A stretch of 33,408 nt of DNA from a virus. The notes beneath the pieces are model-generated. The model was not told the origin of the DNA. It was given only the letters and a program-made list of their open reading frames with translations, and did not search any database. The stretch is from the IMG/VR virus record IMGVR_UViG_3300029319_006373, positions 1-33,408 of that record; one strand, 5' to 3'. The position numbers and the translations under genes are program-made. This document shows positions 3,435 through 10,949 of this stretch, one piece after another; position 1 is the stretch's first letter; each line of letters opens with the position of its first letter.

Positions 3435-5426
3435 ATGGAAAAATTTAAGTTATCCGAAAAGTTTATAGATAAATACAAAAGAAAAAGACCCCCGTTCGGG
3501 TTCAACGGTCTTGGTGAATTAGTGTATATGAGAACATATTCTCGTATTAAAGATAACGGAAAAAATGAAAGATGGTGGGAAACCATTCAACGTGTAGTTG
3601 AGGGAACCTACACAATGCAAAAGAATTGGATTGAATCTCATCAATTAGGTTGGAATGCTTGGCAAGCTCAAAAGTCTGCACAAGAGATGTATGAGAGAAT
3701 GTTCAATATGAAGTTTTTACCTCCTGGACGTGGTCTATGGGCTATGGGTACACCTATTACTGAAGAAAAGGGATTATATGCAGCTCTGAATAATTGTGCC
3801 TTTGTATCAACAAAAACAATCAAAGAAGATTACTCAAAACCATTTTGTTTCTTGATGGATGCTTCTATGTTAGGTGTCGGTGTAGGATTCGATACAAAAG
3901 GAGCAGGTGAGATTATAGTCAAGGGTGTTAACAAAGATAGAAATGAAGAAGTCTTTGAGATACCTGATACTAGAGAAGGTTGGGTTGAATCACTTAGATT
4001 GTTATTAGAAAGTTATTTTCACGGTACAGCTCCTGTTGAGTTTGATTATAGTAAAATTAGACCAGCGGGTGTACCGATAAAAGGTTTCGGTGGTATGAGT
4101 TCTGGTCCTGAACCCTTGATGGAAGTTCATCAGGATATTATAAATGTGTTGGATAAAAATAAAGGTGAACCAATCACAATCACAACCATTGTAGATATTA
4201 TGAATTTAATCGGAAAGTGTGTTGTAGCAGGTAATGTTAGAAGAACAGCTGAGATTGTGTTTGGAGACCCACACAATGAAGAGTATTTAGATTTAAAAAA
4301 TTATGAAGTAAATCCACATAGAGACCAATATGGTTGGACAAGTAACAATAGTATATTTGCTGAGTTAGGAATGGACTATACAGAGGTTTGTAAACGTATT
4401 ACTGATAACGGTGAACCTGGTTTTGCCTGGTTAGATAATATGAGAAAGTATTCTCGTATGAAGAATGGAGGAGACAATAAAGACCATAGAGTAATGGGAG
4501 GTAATCCTTGTCTTGAACAATCACTTGAATCATACGAGTTATGTTGTTTAGTAGAAACGTTTCCTAGTAATCACGATTCATTAGAAGATTATCAGAGAAC
4601 ACTAAAGTATGCTTATCTGTATGCTAAAACCGTAACTTTAGGTAAAACACATTGGTCAGATACAAACAGAGTGATGTTAAGAAACAGAAGAATTGGATGT
4701 AGTGTAAGTGGTGTTGCTCAGTTTATAACAAACAAAGGATTAAATGAATTACAAAACTGGTTAGAAACTGGATATGATACTATACAAGATTGGGATAAAA
4801 AATATTCAGATTGGTTTGCTGTACCACGTTCAATCAAAACAACATCAGTCAAACCTAGTGGAACGGTATCACTATTAGTAGGAGCTACACCAGGGATGCA
4901 TTATCCTGAATCAAGATTTTATATTCGTAGAATGAGGTTATCTAAACATTCTGAGTTATTAGAACCATTAAAGAAAGCAGGATATAAATTAGAACCTGCT
5001 TTTGGTTCAGAGGATTCTACGATGGTTGTCGAAGTACCTGTAGATGTAGGAGAGGGAATAAGAACTGCGGCTGAACTATCAATCTGGGAACAATTCAGTT
5101 TAGCCGCATTCTTACAAAGACATTGGGCAGACAATCAAGTTAGTTGTACAGCTACGTTCGACCCTGAGAAAGAGGCCGACCAGTTACCTGCTGTCCTAAA
5201 TTATTTTCAATACAGATTAAAAGGTATATCATTATTACCAAGACACGATTATGGAGCTTACAAACAAATGCCATACGAAGCTATCGATGAAGATGAATAC
5301 AATAAACAAGTTAAAAAGTTAGGTAAACTTAGTTTTGTTGGTGTTGAAGGTGAGGAAGCTGAAATCGACAAGTTCTGTAATAATGACGCTTGTGAAGTTC
5401 CGGGAGAAAATATAAAAACCACTTGA
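3435..5426 (+). CDS. nrdJ: Class II (adenosylcobalamin-dependent) ribonucleoside-triphosphate reductase
   Basis: A 663-residue monomeric B12-dependent reductase that converts ribonucleotides to deoxyribonucleotides. The sequence keeps the family's whole cysteine set: C121 in NNCAF, the thiyl-radical C359 with E361 in NPCLEQ, C370 eleven residues later (the same spacing as C408/C419 in the Lactobacillus leichmannii enzyme), and a C-terminal shuttle pair C648/C653 with the same five-residue spacing as C731/C736. It is shorter than that enzyme (about 740 residues). T4-like phages more often carry class I NrdA/NrdB. It stands alone between two promoter-like gaps, so it may be a separate transcription unit. 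Activity needs cobalamin supplied by the host. Confidence 0.9.
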   Translation: MEKFKLSEKFIDKYKRKRPPFGFNGLGELVYMRTYSRIKDNGKNERWWETIQRVVEGTYTMQKNWIESHQLGWNAWQAQKSAQEMYERMFNMKFLPPGRGLWAMGTPITEEKGLYAALNNCAFVSTKTIKEDYSKPFCFLMDASMLGVGVGFDTKGAGEIIVKGVNKDRNEEVFEIPDTREGWVESLRLLLESYFHGTAPVEFDYSKIRPAGVPIKGFGGMSSGPEPLMEVHQDIINVLDKNKGEPITITTIVDIMNLIGKCVVAGNVRRTAEIVFGDPHNEEYLDLKNYEVNPHRDQYGWTSNNSIFAELGMDYTEVCKRITDNGEPGFAWLDNMRKYSRMKNGGDNKDHRVMGGNPCLEQSLESYELCCLVETFPSNHDSLEDYQRTLKYAYLYAKTVTLGKTHWSDTNRVMLRNRRIGCSVSGVAQFITNKGLNELQNWLETGYDTIQDWDKKYSDWFAVPRSIKTTSVKPSGTVSLLVGATPGMHYPESRFYIRRMRLSKHSELLEPLKKAGYKLEPAFGSEDSTMVVEVPVDVGEGIRTAAELSIWEQFSLAAFLQRHWADNQVSCTATFDPEKEADQLPAVLNYFQYRLKGISLLPRHDYGAYKQMPYEAIDEDEYNKQVKKLGKLSFVGVEGEEAEIDKFCNNDACEVPGENIKTT

Positions 5427-5484: not shown

Positions 5485-7977
5485 ATGTATCAAGGCATCT
5501 ATTACGATAGAAGAGTCAATAAAATGCATATTTGGGACGATAAGTTTGGACATCAAACATTTCGTTACAAAAAGTATGCCTACACAAAACATAGAGCAGG
5601 AAACTTTGTCTCATTATATGGTGATAAATTAAAAAGAATAACAGAATGGGAAAAAGGACAACCTGATTTGTTTGAGTCGGATGTCAATCCTGAGATTCGT
5701 GTATTGGTAGATAATTATACTGATTCAGACGAACCTTCAGAGGGACATAGAACGATGATATTTGATATTGAGGTAGAGGTTACAGATGGATTTCCTAATA
5801 TCAACACAGCTGAAAACGTAATCACTTCGATAGCTTTCAATGACCCTGTTACAAACGAATACTTCTGTTATGTATTAGACCCCTACAATAAACTTAATAC
5901 AAAGAATACAAGTGATACTATCGTACAATTCAAAGACGAGTTTGATTTATTAAATGCTTTCTTCAAAAAATATTTAGAAATACAACCCACAATATTGACA
6001 GGTTGGAATGTCGAGTTCTTTGATGTTCCTTATCTGTATAATCGAGCTCAAAGAATAGTAGGTAGACAGATAGCTGACGTGTTGTCTCCGATAGGTATCG
6101 TTGAGTGGAGTGATTTTGCTAATAGATACAAAATAGCTGGTGTCAGTATTTTAGATTACTTAACATTATATAAAAAGTTTACATTCAGTCAACAACCTTC
6201 ATATAGATTAGATGCTATAGGAGAGTATGAAGTAGGTGAAAAGAAAGTTGAGTATGAAGGAACTTTGAATGATTTATATGAAAATGACTTAGATAAGTTT
6301 GTTGAGTATAACTTACAAGACGTAAAACTTGTGAAAAAGATAGATGAAAAACTAGACTTTATAGAGATTGCACGTGGTCTAGCTCATCTAGGACATTGTC
6401 CGTATGAAGATGTATTTATGTCCTCAAGATACTTAGAAGGAGCTATATTAGTTTATCTACGTAAACAAGAGATTGTTGCTCCTAATAAACCTACAAAGGG
6501 TATAAATAAATCCGAGAAGTTTGAAGGAGCTTATGTACAAGACCCTCAGAAAGGTAAACACGATTGGGTTTATGACTTAGATATTACCTCGATGTATCCG
6601 TCTTGTATTATGTCTCTAAACATATCTCCTGAAACTAAGTTAGGAAAGATAGAAGGTTGGAATCCTGAAGAGTTTATTGATAAAAAGAATAAAAAAACAT
6701 ATTCACTAACACGTGATGGTAATTTGATTAATCGTTATACTGAAACAGAACTAAAAAATATGCTCGACAACGAACAGATAGGTGTTGCAACAAATGGTGT
6801 TATGTACAGAACGGATAAAAACGGATTACTTCCTGCCTTATTGAGAAAATGGTTTGATGAGAGAGTCGAGTATAGAAAGTTATCTAAAAAACTACACGAA
6901 GAAGGTGATAAGGAAAAGTCAGATTACTTTGACAGAAGACAACACCTACAAAAAATTGTATTGAATAGTTTGTATGGTGTTTTAGGACTTCCTGCTTTCA
7001 GATTCTATGACCTAGACAATGCTGAGGCTGTTACAAGTACAGGTCAATCTTTGATTAAGTTTACTCGTAAGATTGGTAATGCTTACTACAACAAAGAACT
7101 TGGTGATACTAAAGATTATTGTATCTATATTGATACAGACTCAGTATTCTACTCTGCTCTTCCTTTAGTTGAAAAAAGGTATCCTGATGTCAACACACGA
7201 GATGAAGATGTAATGTCAAAAACTATTCTTAATATAGCTAGTGAGGTACAAGATTATCTAAACAAAGGATATGACTTCTTTGGTAAAAGATTTTGTAACT
7301 TAGATAAACATAGATTTGATATTAAACAAGAGGTTATTGCTAAGAGTGGATTGTTCGTTACGAAAAAACGATATGGTATGAAAATCATAAACGATAATGG
7401 TAAAAAAGTTGATAAGTTGTTAGTGAAGGGTTTAGATACGGTTAGGAGTAGTTTTCCGATAGCTATGAGAACTATGTTATCAAAGTTACTAGAAGATATT
7501 TTGATGAGTGTTCCTAAAACAGAGTTAGATAAATTTATTATCAACTTTAAAGATAGTATGAAACTTATGGACTTCAACAAGATTGCTATTCCTATTGGTG
7601 TGAAGGGAATAGGAAAGTATCACAAACCTGACGGAGTTGTTTTTCAATCACATAGATTAGGAACTCCTGTACACGTTAAGAGTGCTATATATTATAATGA
7701 CTTTCTAAAACATTTCAATATATCAAAACAATATTCACCCATAACAAATGGTGATAAAATCAAATGGGTCTATTTAAAACAAAATCCTTTAAATATCGAT
7801 ACAATAGCTTACAAAGGATATGAAGACCCTCCTGAGGTATTAAAATACATCAGAACTTACATTGATGCTACAAAACTATATGAAAAAGCTTTACATAAAA
7901 AAATTATGATGTTGTATGAGGCTCTCGGTTGGACTAAACCTACTGATGCCTCTAAGACATTGGAAAGATTTTTTTGA
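5485..7977 (+). CDS. 43: Family B DNA polymerase (gp43-like)
   Basis: The phage replicative polymerase with 3'-5' proofreading, 830 residues (T4 gp43 is 898). Exonuclease motifs: FDIEVE (D94/E96), TGWNVEFFDVPYL, and YNLQDVKLV. Polymerase motifs: A, DLDITSMYPS (364-373); B, KIVLNSLYG (490-498); C, YIDTDS (catalytic D550/D552). The C-terminal KTLERFF resembles the short hydrophobic clamp-binding tail of gp43. The start at 5485 is kept because the N-terminal residues match the usual gp43 opening, although GAGG (5468-5471) lies 13 bases upstream, rather far. The clamp and both clamp-loader subunits follow. Confidence 0.92.
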   Translation: MYQGIYYDRRVNKMHIWDDKFGHQTFRYKKYAYTKHRAGNFVSLYGDKLKRITEWEKGQPDLFESDVNPEIRVLVDNYTDSDEPSEGHRTMIFDIEVEVTDGFPNINTAENVITSIAFNDPVTNEYFCYVLDPYNKLNTKNTSDTIVQFKDEFDLLNAFFKKYLEIQPTILTGWNVEFFDVPYLYNRAQRIVGRQIADVLSPIGIVEWSDFANRYKIAGVSILDYLTLYKKFTFSQQPSYRLDAIGEYEVGEKKVEYEGTLNDLYENDLDKFVEYNLQDVKLVKKIDEKLDFIEIARGLAHLGHCPYEDVFMSSRYLEGAILVYLRKQEIVAPNKPTKGINKSEKFEGAYVQDPQKGKHDWVYDLDITSMYPSCIMSLNISPETKLGKIEGWNPEEFIDKKNKKTYSLTRDGNLINRYTETELKNMLDNEQIGVATNGVMYRTDKNGLLPALLRKWFDERVEYRKLSKKLHEEGDKEKSDYFDRRQHLQKIVLNSLYGVLGLPAFRFYDLDNAEAVTSTGQSLIKFTRKIGNAYYNKELGDTKDYCIYIDTDSVFYSALPLVEKRYPDVNTRDEDVMSKTILNIASEVQDYLNKGYDFFGKRFCNLDKHRFDIKQEVIAKSGLFVTKKRYGMKIINDNGKKVDKLLVKGLDTVRSSFPIAMRTMLSKLLEDILMSVPKTELDKFIINFKDSMKLMDFNKIAIPIGVKGIGKYHKPDGVVFQSHRLGTPVHVKSAIYYNDFLKHFNISKQYSPITNGDKIKWVYLKQNPLNIDTIAYKGYEDPPEVLKYIRTYIDATKLYEKALHKKIMMLYEALGWTKPTDASKTLERFF

Positions 7978-8030: not shown

Positions 8031-8765
8031 ATGGATAAAAATAGTTTAGTCCGTTTCATAAACAAATACTACTTAGACGGTGTAGGTAATGCTGTCGTTC
8101 TAAATAGTAACTCGGAAAAACAACAACTAATGACTAAGAGTGTTTCGGAAGGAAACTCGATGTTAGCTTTAGTCAAGATGACTGATTGGAAACCTGATTT
8201 CGATGATTCGATTTTAGGTGTCTACTCAACTGATTCTTTACTTAGTATGATAAAAGTATTAGATAATGATGTGAAGATTTCAGTATTAAAGTCAGATGAG
8301 AAGGCTCTAGCTCTCAAGTTTAATGACTCAAATACTTCAGTAAATTATATGCTGTCAGACCCTTCTATCATTAATGAACCTCCTAATCTAAAAAACATTC
8401 CTGAGTTTGAATTGAATGTGAATATTACAGAGTATCTCAGAAAGACATTTTTAGCTGGTAAAGGTGCTCTTCCTGAAGTTACTAAGTTTTCTGTCGTAAC
8501 AGATGGTACAAGTGCTAAATTAGTTCTTGGATTCTCAGCCTCAACTAACACAAACAGAATAACTATTCCAGTTGAAACAACACAATCAGCTCATATGGAG
8601 ACTATGTCATTTAATGCTGAACATTTCGCTTCTATATTAAAAGCTAATGAAGAGTGTGAAACTGGTACTATGGAAGTCAGTAGTGATGGTTTAATTAAGA
8701 TGTCATTCAAAGTTGATAACTACGAAAGTCAGTATTGGTTAGTTGCTACTCAGGATGTTGATTAA
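8031..8765 (+). CDS. 45: DNA polymerase sliding clamp (gp45-like)
   Basis: A 244-residue protein with the size and placement of the T4 gp45 processivity clamp (228 residues), between the polymerase and the clamp-loader ATPase. The sequence alternates beta strands and lacks enzyme motifs, as clamps do; segments such as KISVLKSDEKALALKF and MEVSSDGLIKMSFKVDNYESQYWL fit the repeated clamp fold. A ring of this protein would tether the polymerase and, in T4, also takes part in late transcription. A strong AGGAG precedes the ATG. Its TAA overlaps the next start (TAATG). The assignment rests mainly on context and general resemblance. Confidence 0.8.
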   Translation: MDKNSLVRFINKYYLDGVGNAVVLNSNSEKQQLMTKSVSEGNSMLALVKMTDWKPDFDDSILGVYSTDSLLSMIKVLDNDVKISVLKSDEKALALKFNDSNTSVNYMLSDPSIINEPPNLKNIPEFELNVNITEYLRKTFLAGKGALPEVTKFSVVTDGTSAKLVLGFSASTNTNRITIPVETTQSAHMETMSFNAEHFASILKANEECETGTMEVSSDGLIKMSFKVDNYESQYWLVATQDVD

Positions 8766-9679
8766 TGTCAAACACTTTGTGGGTAGAAAAGTATCGTCCT
8801 AGCACGTTAGAGAACTATATAGGAAACGAACATCTTACATCTAAGGTAAAACATTACTTAGAGACTGGTGATTTACCTCACTTACTTTTGTTTGGTAAAG
8901 CTGGTACTGGTAAAACAACACTAGCTAAGATTCTTGTTAAGAATATAGAATGTGATTATCTCTATATAAATGCCTCAGATGAGAACAATGTTGAAACGGT
9001 CAGAACAAAAGTAAAAGAGTTTGCCTCTACAATCGGTTTCAAAGATATGAAAGTGATTATCTTGGATGAGTGTGATTACATTACTCCGAATGCTCAGGCC
9101 GCTCTTCGTAATCTTATGGAAACATTCTCTAAACATTGTAGATTTATCTTGACTTGTAATTTTGTTGAGAGAATCATAGACCCGATACAAAGTCGTTGTC
9201 AATCATTTCAAATTATACCTCCATCGAAAAGTGATGTAGCTAAACATCTACATAATATATTGATAAAAGAAAATGTAATCGATACGATAGAGGATATTAA
9301 AGTTTTAATTGATAGTAGTTATCCCGACATTCGTAGAGTTATCAATTCAGCTCAAAGAAATGTTGTGAATGGTAAATTGAAGTTAGATACTTCAAGTATT
9401 ATTCAAAATGACTACAAGTTAAAACTTTTAAAAATACTAAAGACACAAGATGGAAAAACAGCTTTTACTGAGATTCGTCAACTATTAGCCGACAATAAGA
9501 TTACAGACTTTGCAGATTTGTTTAGATTATTGTATGATGAAGTTGATGGATATGGTAAAGGTCACATAGCAGAATGTATTTTGATTATAGCAAGATACGA
9601 ACTTTCAGATAGTCAAGTAGTTGATAAAGAAATCAACGCTATGGCTATGATTATAGAATTATTAGGAGTCATTAAATGA
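8765..9679 (+). CDS. 44: Clamp-loader ATPase subunit (gp44-like, AAA+)
   Basis: A 304-residue AAA+ ATPase of the RFC/gp44 family that opens the sliding clamp and loads it on primed DNA. It begins with the family signature WVEKYRPSTLENYIGNE. Walker A is GKAGTGKT (44-51), Walker B LDECD (D101/E102), and the SRC arginine-finger motif is at 143-145. The C-terminal third is helical, as in the collar domain. T4 gp44 is 319 residues. TAATG links it to the clamp gene upstream, and ATGA to the zinc-ribbon gene downstream; the small subunit lies two genes further on. Confidence 0.92.
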   Translation: MSNTLWVEKYRPSTLENYIGNEHLTSKVKHYLETGDLPHLLLFGKAGTGKTTLAKILVKNIECDYLYINASDENNVETVRTKVKEFASTIGFKDMKVIILDECDYITPNAQAALRNLMETFSKHCRFILTCNFVERIIDPIQSRCQSFQIIPPSKSDVAKHLHNILIKENVIDTIEDIKVLIDSSYPDIRRVINSAQRNVVNGKLKLDTSSIIQNDYKLKLLKILKTQDGKTAFTEIRQLLADNKITDFADLFRLLYDEVDGYGKGHIAECILIIARYELSDSQVVDKEINAMAMIIELLGVIK

Positions 9680-9945
9680 GTATGCATCCAATGAGAAAAC
9701 CGAAACCACAACAAGCTCAAGTCAAGGTTGATTTGAGAGAAGCAGATACAATTAAGTGTGAACATTGTGATAATTATCTGTTCATAGCTTCTACTATTCT
9801 TAAACGATTATCTGCTTTAGTATCACCTACAGGAGAGGAAGCAATCATTCCTATCGATGTATATAGTTGTGGAAATTGTGGACAAGTACCTAAAGATATG
9901 TTAAAAGGTTCAGGATTAGAACAATCTGATGTCAAAACAAGCTAA
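9676..9945 (+). CDS. Zinc-ribbon-like small phage protein
   Basis: An 89-residue protein with two cysteine pairs, CEHC at about 34-37 and CGNC at about 71-74, separated by a strand-rich stretch containing SPTGEEAIIPIDVY. This layout suggests a zinc ribbon. Similar small proteins are, from memory, common next to clamp-loader genes of marine T4-like phages, but I know no proven function. It starts in an ATGA overlap with the clamp-loader gene and its end overlaps the next small gene by 17 bases, so it is probably co-translated with the replisome genes. A second in-frame ATG lies two codons after the first. Confidence 0.7.
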   Translation: MSMHPMRKPKPQQAQVKVDLREADTIKCEHCDNYLFIASTILKRLSALVSPTGEEAIIPIDVYSCGNCGQVPKDMLKGSGLEQSDVKTS

Positions 9946-10084
9946 GTATTCAGAAGCCGGAAAGGGAGATTCTAATAGAGTCTCGAATATAAAAAAGTAT
10001 GAAGAAAACTACGAAAAAATCTTTGATAAAAAAGAAAGGTCTGTTCGACCACATCAATCAAATAAAAAAGGTTCAAAATCCTAA
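9929..10084 (+). CDS. Small basic phage protein (51 aa) overlapping the gp62-like gene
   Basis: The ATG at 9929 opens a 51-residue frame inside the end of the zinc-ribbon gene. The protein begins MSKQAKYSEAGKGDSNR and contains YEENYEKIFDKKER. The pattern GKGD-x-x-R followed by Y-x-x-N-Y-x-x-I-F is one I recognise from small uncharacterised proteins of many tailed phages, so it is likely real. Otherwise the 53 bases between the two longer genes would be empty, unusual here. Its last 86 bases overlap the start of the clamp-loader small-subunit gene in another frame. Function unknown. Confidence 0.65.
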   Translation: MSKQAKYSEAGKGDSNRVSNIKKYEENYEKIFDKKERSVRPHQSNKKGSKS

Positions 10085-10508
10085 TTATTGGGAAACACTT
10101 ACAGAAGAAGATAAAAAGTCCTGGTCAAACTATATGATTCATAGATTTCTGTCTATGAATATGAATGTAATCGACCTAGTAAATGAATTACAAAAATATA
10201 ACTTAAAACCTCAAGACTTATACAAGTTATACACAAACATCTTACCTAAAGATAATAGATTTTATAAATATGTTAAAGGGAGAAGTGAAATGGCACATCC
10301 AAATTGGTTAGTAAATATTGTTACTAATCACGAAGAAGTTAGTAAAAAAGAAGCAATCGAGATGATTGATATGTATTACCTCACCGAAGGAGGAATGTTA
10401 GAGTTAGGTCAATTAGCTCAGAAATGGGGAATTGAACCTAAGAGAATAGAAGAAGCAGGACTGAATGTATTGGGTTCTTCTGATGGGTATACAGCAGGAA
10501 ATGGTTAA
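9999..10508 (+). CDS. 62: Clamp-loader small subunit (gp62-like)
   Basis: A 169-residue helical protein resembling the clamp-loader A (gp62) family of T4-like phages. Family-like segments are FDHINQIKKVQNPNYWETL, TEEDKKSWSNYMIHRFLSMN, and the YKLYTNILPKDNRFYKYVKG stretch. It would join the gp44-like ATPase to form the clamp loader. The first 14 residues are lysine-rich and share their DNA with the tail of the upstream small gene; the gp62-like part begins near residue 15. There is no clear ribosome site before 9999, so translation probably depends on ribosomes from the upstream frame. A promoter follows immediately. Confidence 0.75.
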   Translation: MKKTTKKSLIKKKGLFDHINQIKKVQNPNYWETLTEEDKKSWSNYMIHRFLSMNMNVIDLVNELQKYNLKPQDLYKLYTNILPKDNRFYKYVKGRSEMAHPNWLVNIVTNHEEVSKKEAIEMIDMYYLTEGGMLELGQLAQKWGIEPKRIEEAGLNVLGSSDGYTAGNG

Positions 10509-10568: not shown

Positions 10569-10949
10569 ATGACAAATATAATTAAGGATAGTCCTCGTTC
10601 AGATGAAGATTACAATGTTGTAGAACAAATGGAAAAAGAGTGGCCCGAGATGACTTCAGAGTTTAAGAAGATTCAACGAGAACAATATGAATTATTCCTA
10701 CATAAACAACACGACTACGGTCCAGGTAATATATCAGTTGGAACAATGTTACAAACACCTGAGGAAATCAAATTATCCCTTACAGGTCTTTGGTTTAGAA
10801 TGAATGACAAGTTACAACGAGTAAAAACTTTATTGATGACAGGTAGAGAATCAGCAGTAAAAGATGAACCTCTCGAGGATGCTTATCTTGATGTAAGTAA
10901 TTATGGTATTATGGCTACAATAGTGGGACGAGGTAAGTGGGGTAAATGA
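10569..10949 (+). CDS. DUF1599 / nucleotide-modification-associated domain protein
   Basis: A 126-residue soluble protein. The core KIQREQYELFLHKQHDYGPGNI and the later GLWFRMNDKLQRVKTLL plus EDAYLDVSNYGIMATI match the DUF1599 pattern, a helical family with conserved K-x-x-DYG and DK-x-x-R residues found in many phages. By comparative genomics the family has been linked to nucleotide metabolism or DNA modification, but no reaction is assigned. It is the first gene after a good promoter, has an AGGAG site, and overlaps the following gene by ATGA. Confidence 0.65.
   Translation: MTNIIKDSPRSDEDYNVVEQMEKEWPEMTSEFKKIQREQYELFLHKQHDYGPGNISVGTMLQTPEEIKLSLTGLWFRMNDKLQRVKTLLMTGRESAVKDEPLEDAYLDVSNYGIMATIVGRGKWGK

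Follow-up and report, generated by a model that had tools for sequence, protein, structure and literature searches.

A small phage gene that appears to share coding sequence with the start of a gp62-like clamp-loader gene

Coupled and overlapping genes in described systems

Overlaps of the sort considered here, in which a small gene (s51) runs into the gene for a gp62-like clamp-loader small subunit (gp62), are common in phages. Among the described systems, the clamp-loader genes 44 and 62 of T4 are translationally coupled, as stated in PMC2988022. In T4, the start of gene 62 is a single base away from the stop of gene 44. The locus reported here resembles this system in holding the same two genes in one operon, with gp62 lacking a strong start of its own in several relatives, but differs in that two further genes, zr89 and s51, intervene, and in that gp62 starts inside the gene upstream of it, 86 bases before that gene's stop.

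Split ribosome-binding sites, in which a hairpin lies between a distal Shine–Dalgarno (SD) sequence and the AUG, are described for T4 genes 25 and 38 (PMC3014915). The comparable element in our sequence, in contrast, is predicted only, lies inside the coding sequence of another gene and leaves 14 bases. A conserved overlap between T4 dsbA and gene 33 is read as translational coupling (PMC2988020); there too a small DNA-related gene overlaps the next essential gene, although the genes are different and no data on reciprocal constraint were seen for them. Same-strand overlaps in prokaryotes form when a start or stop codon moves into a neighbouring gene (PMC3887535). The present case differs in that a gained gene appears to have supplied the new start, and in that a series of loci is available in which the small gene is intact, shortened or absent. 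Among the open-licence papers searched, we found no report of the s51/gp62 overlap.

The whole analysed stretch, here called the window, is a viral record of 33,408 bases. Its replication genes are of T4 type, those from the large subunit onwards lying on the + strand, and follow the order polymerase (5485-7977), clamp (8031-8765), gp44-like clamp-loader large subunit (8765-9679), zr89 (9676-9945), s51 (9929-10084) and gp62 (9999-10508). The large subunit matches phrog_168 (E 5e-81), and its stop shares 4 bases with the next start. The zr89 gene encodes an 89-aa zinc-ribbon-like protein with two CxxC pairs that resembles the product of the gene between gp44 and gp62 in Microcystis phage Mel-JY01 (34% identity, 68 columns); we found no Pfam match above the cut-off for it. 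The 169-aa gp62-like protein matches phrog_225, 'clamp loader' (E 8e-13), and shares 34% identity with the clamp loader annotated in Mel-JY01 (103 columns). Its gene belongs to the clamp-loader operon, with phrog_168 (gp44) and phrog_223 (gp45) directly upstream. The top four Foldseek matches to its low-confidence model (pLDDT 66.8) are T4 clamp-loader entries, none of them significant (best E 0.21). The gene that follows gp62 (10569-10949) matches PF07659 (DUF1599, nucleotide modification associated) and phrog_1485; regA follows gene 62 in T4 and in P-TIM68.

Conservation and constraint in the two frames

Relatives were collected in five scans of viral contigs, with the best 80 loci taken per scan, giving at least 218 loci with gp62 and an FDH-type motif. 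These comprise 88 unique sequences and 63 representatives less than 95% identical, 41 with s51 and 22 without. Eleven loci whose gp62 is without the F[DQ]H motif were excluded from the counts; in all five of these that were looked at (L252, L256, L258, L074 and L242), s51 overlaps gp62. The two groups are not clean, as some loci without s51 retain a remnant of the s51 tail. One of the 22 (L273) is a cut-off contig beginning inside s51, and this misgrouping makes the with/without contrasts slightly conservative. With related sequences and a gene that undergoes exchange, the permutation p-values given below serve as guides and are not exact.

The s51 frame of 51 codons shares 17 bases with zr89. 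Its overlap with gp62 is 86 bases long (9999-10084, the gp62 frame being +1), the length that the preliminary description had reported from the window alone. The first upstream stop in the gp62 frame lies at 9990-9992, so a gp62 start before 9999 is impossible. Homologues that begin only after 10084, which the preliminary description had seen as a threat to its reading, were absent: in 40 of the 41 s51-bearing representatives, the conserved Phe is preceded by an in-frame gp62 ATG at a distance of 15, 17 or 18 codons. We also considered a later start and rejected it, as the s51-bearing loci have no further in-frame start codon in common and, in the cultured homologue, Mel-JY01, whose gp62 starts 'MAKNLFDHL', the core opens with LFDH. 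The overlap had been described as encoding the basic tails of two proteins, and this needs qualifying, since on the gp62 side the first predicted helix, which is conserved (residues 15-25, LFDHINQI...), is encoded there too. Upstream of this helix, an N-terminal extension predicted to be disordered (residues 1-14, 9999-10040) lies over the conserved [YW]..IF core of s51, and the s51 stop codon (10082-10084) falls within the gp62 codons for Pro28 and Asn29.

Spurious ORFs of 30-108 aa are present near s51, so its length by itself is no proof of a gene. Its stop is at the same place in 39 of the 41 representatives, two tails ending elsewhere, and the frame is open to that point or beyond in 40. 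All 58 unique s51-bearing sequences carry TTC as the codon for gp62 Phe16 (10044-10046 in the window), where TTT would be TGA in the s51 frame, and 56 of the 58 have the same s51 stop; a frame broken in close relatives, another outcome that the preliminary description had set against itself, was thus not seen. When the gp62 proteins were held fixed and codons were drawn by usage, the s51 frame stayed open through the overlap in 1.8% of draws, corresponding to 0.7 of 41 expected against 40 of 41 seen, the 41 being related rather than independent trials. This random synonymous recoding rules out a chance open frame.

Synonymous variation is suppressed in both frames, and only within the overlap. 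Across gp62 codons 11-28 the observed/expected ratio is 0.47, against 0.76 in the rest of gp62, in the 41 representatives with s51 (column permutation p 0.0045), and the low value persists on thinning to 32, 21, 9 and 6 sequences (p 0.003-0.013). The same codons in the 22 representatives without s51 give 0.87 against 0.75 (between-group difference p 5e-5). In the s51 frame, synonymous variation falls from 0.94 before the gp62 ATG to 0.43 after it (p 0.0047), and pN/pS is 0.34 in the non-overlapping s51 core. Single codons follow the same pattern. The Phe codon of FDHIN is TTC in 41/41 representatives with s51 and 14/22 without (Fisher p 8e-5; after thinning, 21 versus 15 sequences, p 0.008, and 9 versus 9, p 0.08), while the other conserved Phe in these 41 genes is encoded by TTT in 29 of them. 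The base that forms the internal gp62 ATG is T in 40/40, and Asp elsewhere in s51 is GAC in 7/40. A tree-based paired test of the Phe codon had only 2-4 informative pairs (p 0.125-0.5), and its sign test is not informative. Selection on the s51 stop codon itself was considered and dropped, the stop-forming CCT being equally common without s51 (17/20) and with it (40/41).

A constraint acting on the RNA, through structure or an effect of the start region, could in principle produce the same suppression, given that the overlap is a gene start, where synonymous change is often limited, and that the window's type of locus has a predicted hairpin. We consider this very unlikely: where s51 is absent, these gp62 codons vary freely although they lie just as near the start, and the overlap sites that do vary at normal rates are those with a mild effect on s51 (V/I, P/S, D/N, K/E), while sites at which a change would give an s51 stop or a radical replacement hardly vary. 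This pattern also speaks against mere homogenisation. Taken together, frame conservation and reciprocal synonymous constraint, the checks that the preliminary description had called for, show from sequence comparison that both readings of the overlap are under purifying selection. Its view that both frames are real is upheld, and dual coding is well supported.

Initiation of the gp62-like gene

The preliminary description held that gp62 is without a ribosome site. This is so in the window, where the anti-SD energy of the gp62 start is 0 (of the 39 gene starts scored, 2 have this value and 23 reach -4.4 kcal/mol or better), but it is not so generally, as an SD-like site is present within the s51 codons in 30 of the 34 loci with other s51 types. 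An energy of -4.4 or lower precedes the gp62 ATG in 25/27 loci of the class with 17 codons before the Phe and in 5/7 of the 18-codon class, compared with 0/6 of the 15-codon class, which is the window's s51 type; the value for loci without s51 is 1/21, with the most upstream ATG or GTG scored, which is not always the likeliest start. The SD-like stretch may be a mere reflection of the R-R-G-I codons, because it is also present in s51 copies without gp62 (L262). The only other scored start in the window without SD-like pairing, at 1979, opens a frame that overlaps the previous one by 23 bases.

It had further been proposed that the amount of gp62 is set by ribosomes that finish s51 and restart at gp62. 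The missing SD in the window and the translational coupling of the T4 clamp-loader genes, as given in PMC2988022, would suit this proposal. Against it, coupling of this kind is looked for within about 20 bases of an upstream stop; in the window the gp62 start has the s51 stop 86 bases downstream and the zr89 stop 53 bases upstream, whereas in 15 of the 19 measurable loci without s51 no more than 20 bases separate the gp62 start from the zr89 stop. The SD-like sites of the other s51 types also argue against it. We regard reinitiation after s51 as highly improbable, and this regulatory reading of the overlap, judged from the sequences, needs replacing. A possible fusion of s51 with gp62 by frameshifting was weighed as well; gp62 lies in the +1 frame, and we noticed no shift site common to the loci.

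For the window's type, a split ribosome-binding site is a tentative possibility. The purine run GGAAAGG (9959-9965), which comes from the GKG codons of s51 and could act as a distal SD, lies 33 bases before the gp62 ATG, and a predicted hairpin between the two, GAGAUUCU-AAU-AGAGUCUC (9966-9984), would reduce this to 14 bases if folded out. The hairpin is found in 7/7 unique sequences of this type, in six of which at least 96.8% of synonymous resamplings are less stable. Additionally, it appears exactly in the type that is without a proximal SD, with 5/6 window-type representatives at a stability value of 0.02 or below against 0/33 of other types (L225 omitted from this control), although background gp62 windows in the same six genes reach that value in 5.6% of cases. 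Covariation was looked for among the eight pairs of the hairpin and none was found: there are no compensatory changes, five pairs never vary and the innermost pair is lost in three of the seven sequences. The resulting spacing of 14 is also larger than the 5 and 11 given for T4 genes 38 and 25 (PMC3014915). The region around the gp62 start is 54% A with a folding energy of -1.4 over 50 bases, and such an unstructured A-rich start may be enough for initiation in the window.

The slot between zr89 and gp62, and the s51 family

Among the measurable loci with s51, 36 of 39 have the s51 start at the zr89 stop, with the gp62 start lying inside s51. Where s51 is absent, the position at the zr89 stop is mostly held by gp62, as noted above, and in the remaining 4 of the 19 loci another gene lies between them. 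The cultured Mel-JY01 shows the compact order gp44, zr homologue (4-base overlap) and gp62 (1-base overlap). The distance from the gp62 start to the Phe is mostly 6-13 codons without s51 and 15, 17 or 18 codons with it, which marks the gp62 extension as the newer part.

Several observations make the locus read as one slot in which small genes are exchanged. On the gp62 tree, in which just 17 of 60 inner branches are well supported, 16 changes are needed to account for where s51 is present, and the neighbours L270 and L225 (100/99 support) carry different s51 types. Three loci (L252, L258 and L074) have the same s51 core joined to another gp62 type, with a different tail. In L060 (5763-6080) and L134 (2174-2464), a gene with an FmdB-type zinc ribbon stands in place of s51 and ends at the same stop inside gp62; the matches to PF09723 have E 4e-10 and 7e-8, the weaker of them below the cut-off. 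Three further loci (L021 1824-1931, L151 3949-4044 and L142 948-1031) retain s51 remnants without the GKGD core, with gp62 back at the zr89 stop; these look like internal deletions of s51, and as natural deletions they are useful for asking whether s51 is dispensable.

A further 42-aa frame, translated for L165 only (bases 3874-4000), sits between zr89 and s51 and shares a few bases with each; the spacing is similar in L121 and L274. The slot between zr89 and gp62 seems to collect small genes.

The exchanged tails and the shared stop used by the FmdB-type gene, together with family members elsewhere that are without this tail, would also fit a passive tail, in which the s51 core alone matters and gp62 dictates what follows up to the first stop. 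We think this unlikely, as synonymous change in gp62 is suppressed and the Phe codon is invariably TTC in s51-bearing loci only. These two observations indicate that truncation at the Phe codon is avoided.

The reading that we consider probable is that a real gene, s51, took the slot, that gp62 came to start within it, that both readings have since been kept, and that initiation is internal rather than dependent on ribosomes that have finished s51. Under this reading, s51 would encode a small basic phage protein and would have taken over the stop-start position at zr89 that gp62 holds in relatives without it, the gp62 start moving to an ATG inside s51. The new, disordered stretch at the gp62 N-terminus would then be a second reading of the conserved s51 core, and the new C-terminal tail of s51 a second reading of the conserved first helix of gp62. 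Initiation of gp62 would be its own, using in most loci an SD-like site that lies within s51. For the window's type it would probably proceed via the unstructured A-rich region, perhaps helped by the hairpin bringing the distal purine run nearer, or by s51-translating ribosomes opening the message. A bolder version appears to us rather doubtful. In it, s51 would be a mobile cassette bringing a ready internal start to any gene downstream, able to insert before an essential replication gene, occupy the coupled position and place gp62 under this new start; in the window's type, a split site wholly within the s51 codons would let ribosome transit through the hairpin tune the clamp-loader ratio.

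The s51 family shares the core GKG[DS]..R...[YW]..[NK][YW]..IFGKK, followed by a variable charged tail. The window's s51 carries both GKG[DS]..R and [YW]..[NK][YW]..IF, and G, K, G, R and F are invariant in an alignment of 44 sequences (A1, without L225; L056, L178, L181 and others of the 41 were omitted from A1 or A3 for size). Outside the gp62 slot, family members have unrelated tails and end shortly after IF(GKK), and the fetched stretches hold no gp62, gp44 or zr89 match; this applies to 9 clear loci and to 27/27 examined from at least 48 found. Searched with s51 at E <= 1, neither Pfam nor PHROGs gave a match; NCBIfam gave a single one far below the cut-off, and solved structures nothing below E 0.84. 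For its relatives, all PHROG matches were weak, the best at E 0.0047 and 0.015, and PF25742 was matched below the cut-off (E 0.092). Among annotated phages there was no nucleotide match, and s51 and three relatives gave weak protein matches only (best E 0.7); 187 pattern matches in cellular genomes included none that was confirmed. The s51 model is of low confidence (pLDDT 66.9), with one helix at residues 21-32. From gene position only, our guess is that s51 is a small basic protein acting with the replication machinery.

On these searches, the s51 family consists of very small phage proteins without a significant match in the three curated collections Pfam, PHROGs and NCBIfam. The series of loci with, without and with a shortened s51 before one essential gene illustrates how a long same-strand overlap would arise by gene gain and a new internal start. 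Additionally, the natural gain and loss of s51 makes its effects unusually easy to test, and the s51/gp62 loci offer direct tests of how subunit ratios may be set in a clamp-loader operon that is without a stop-start signal.
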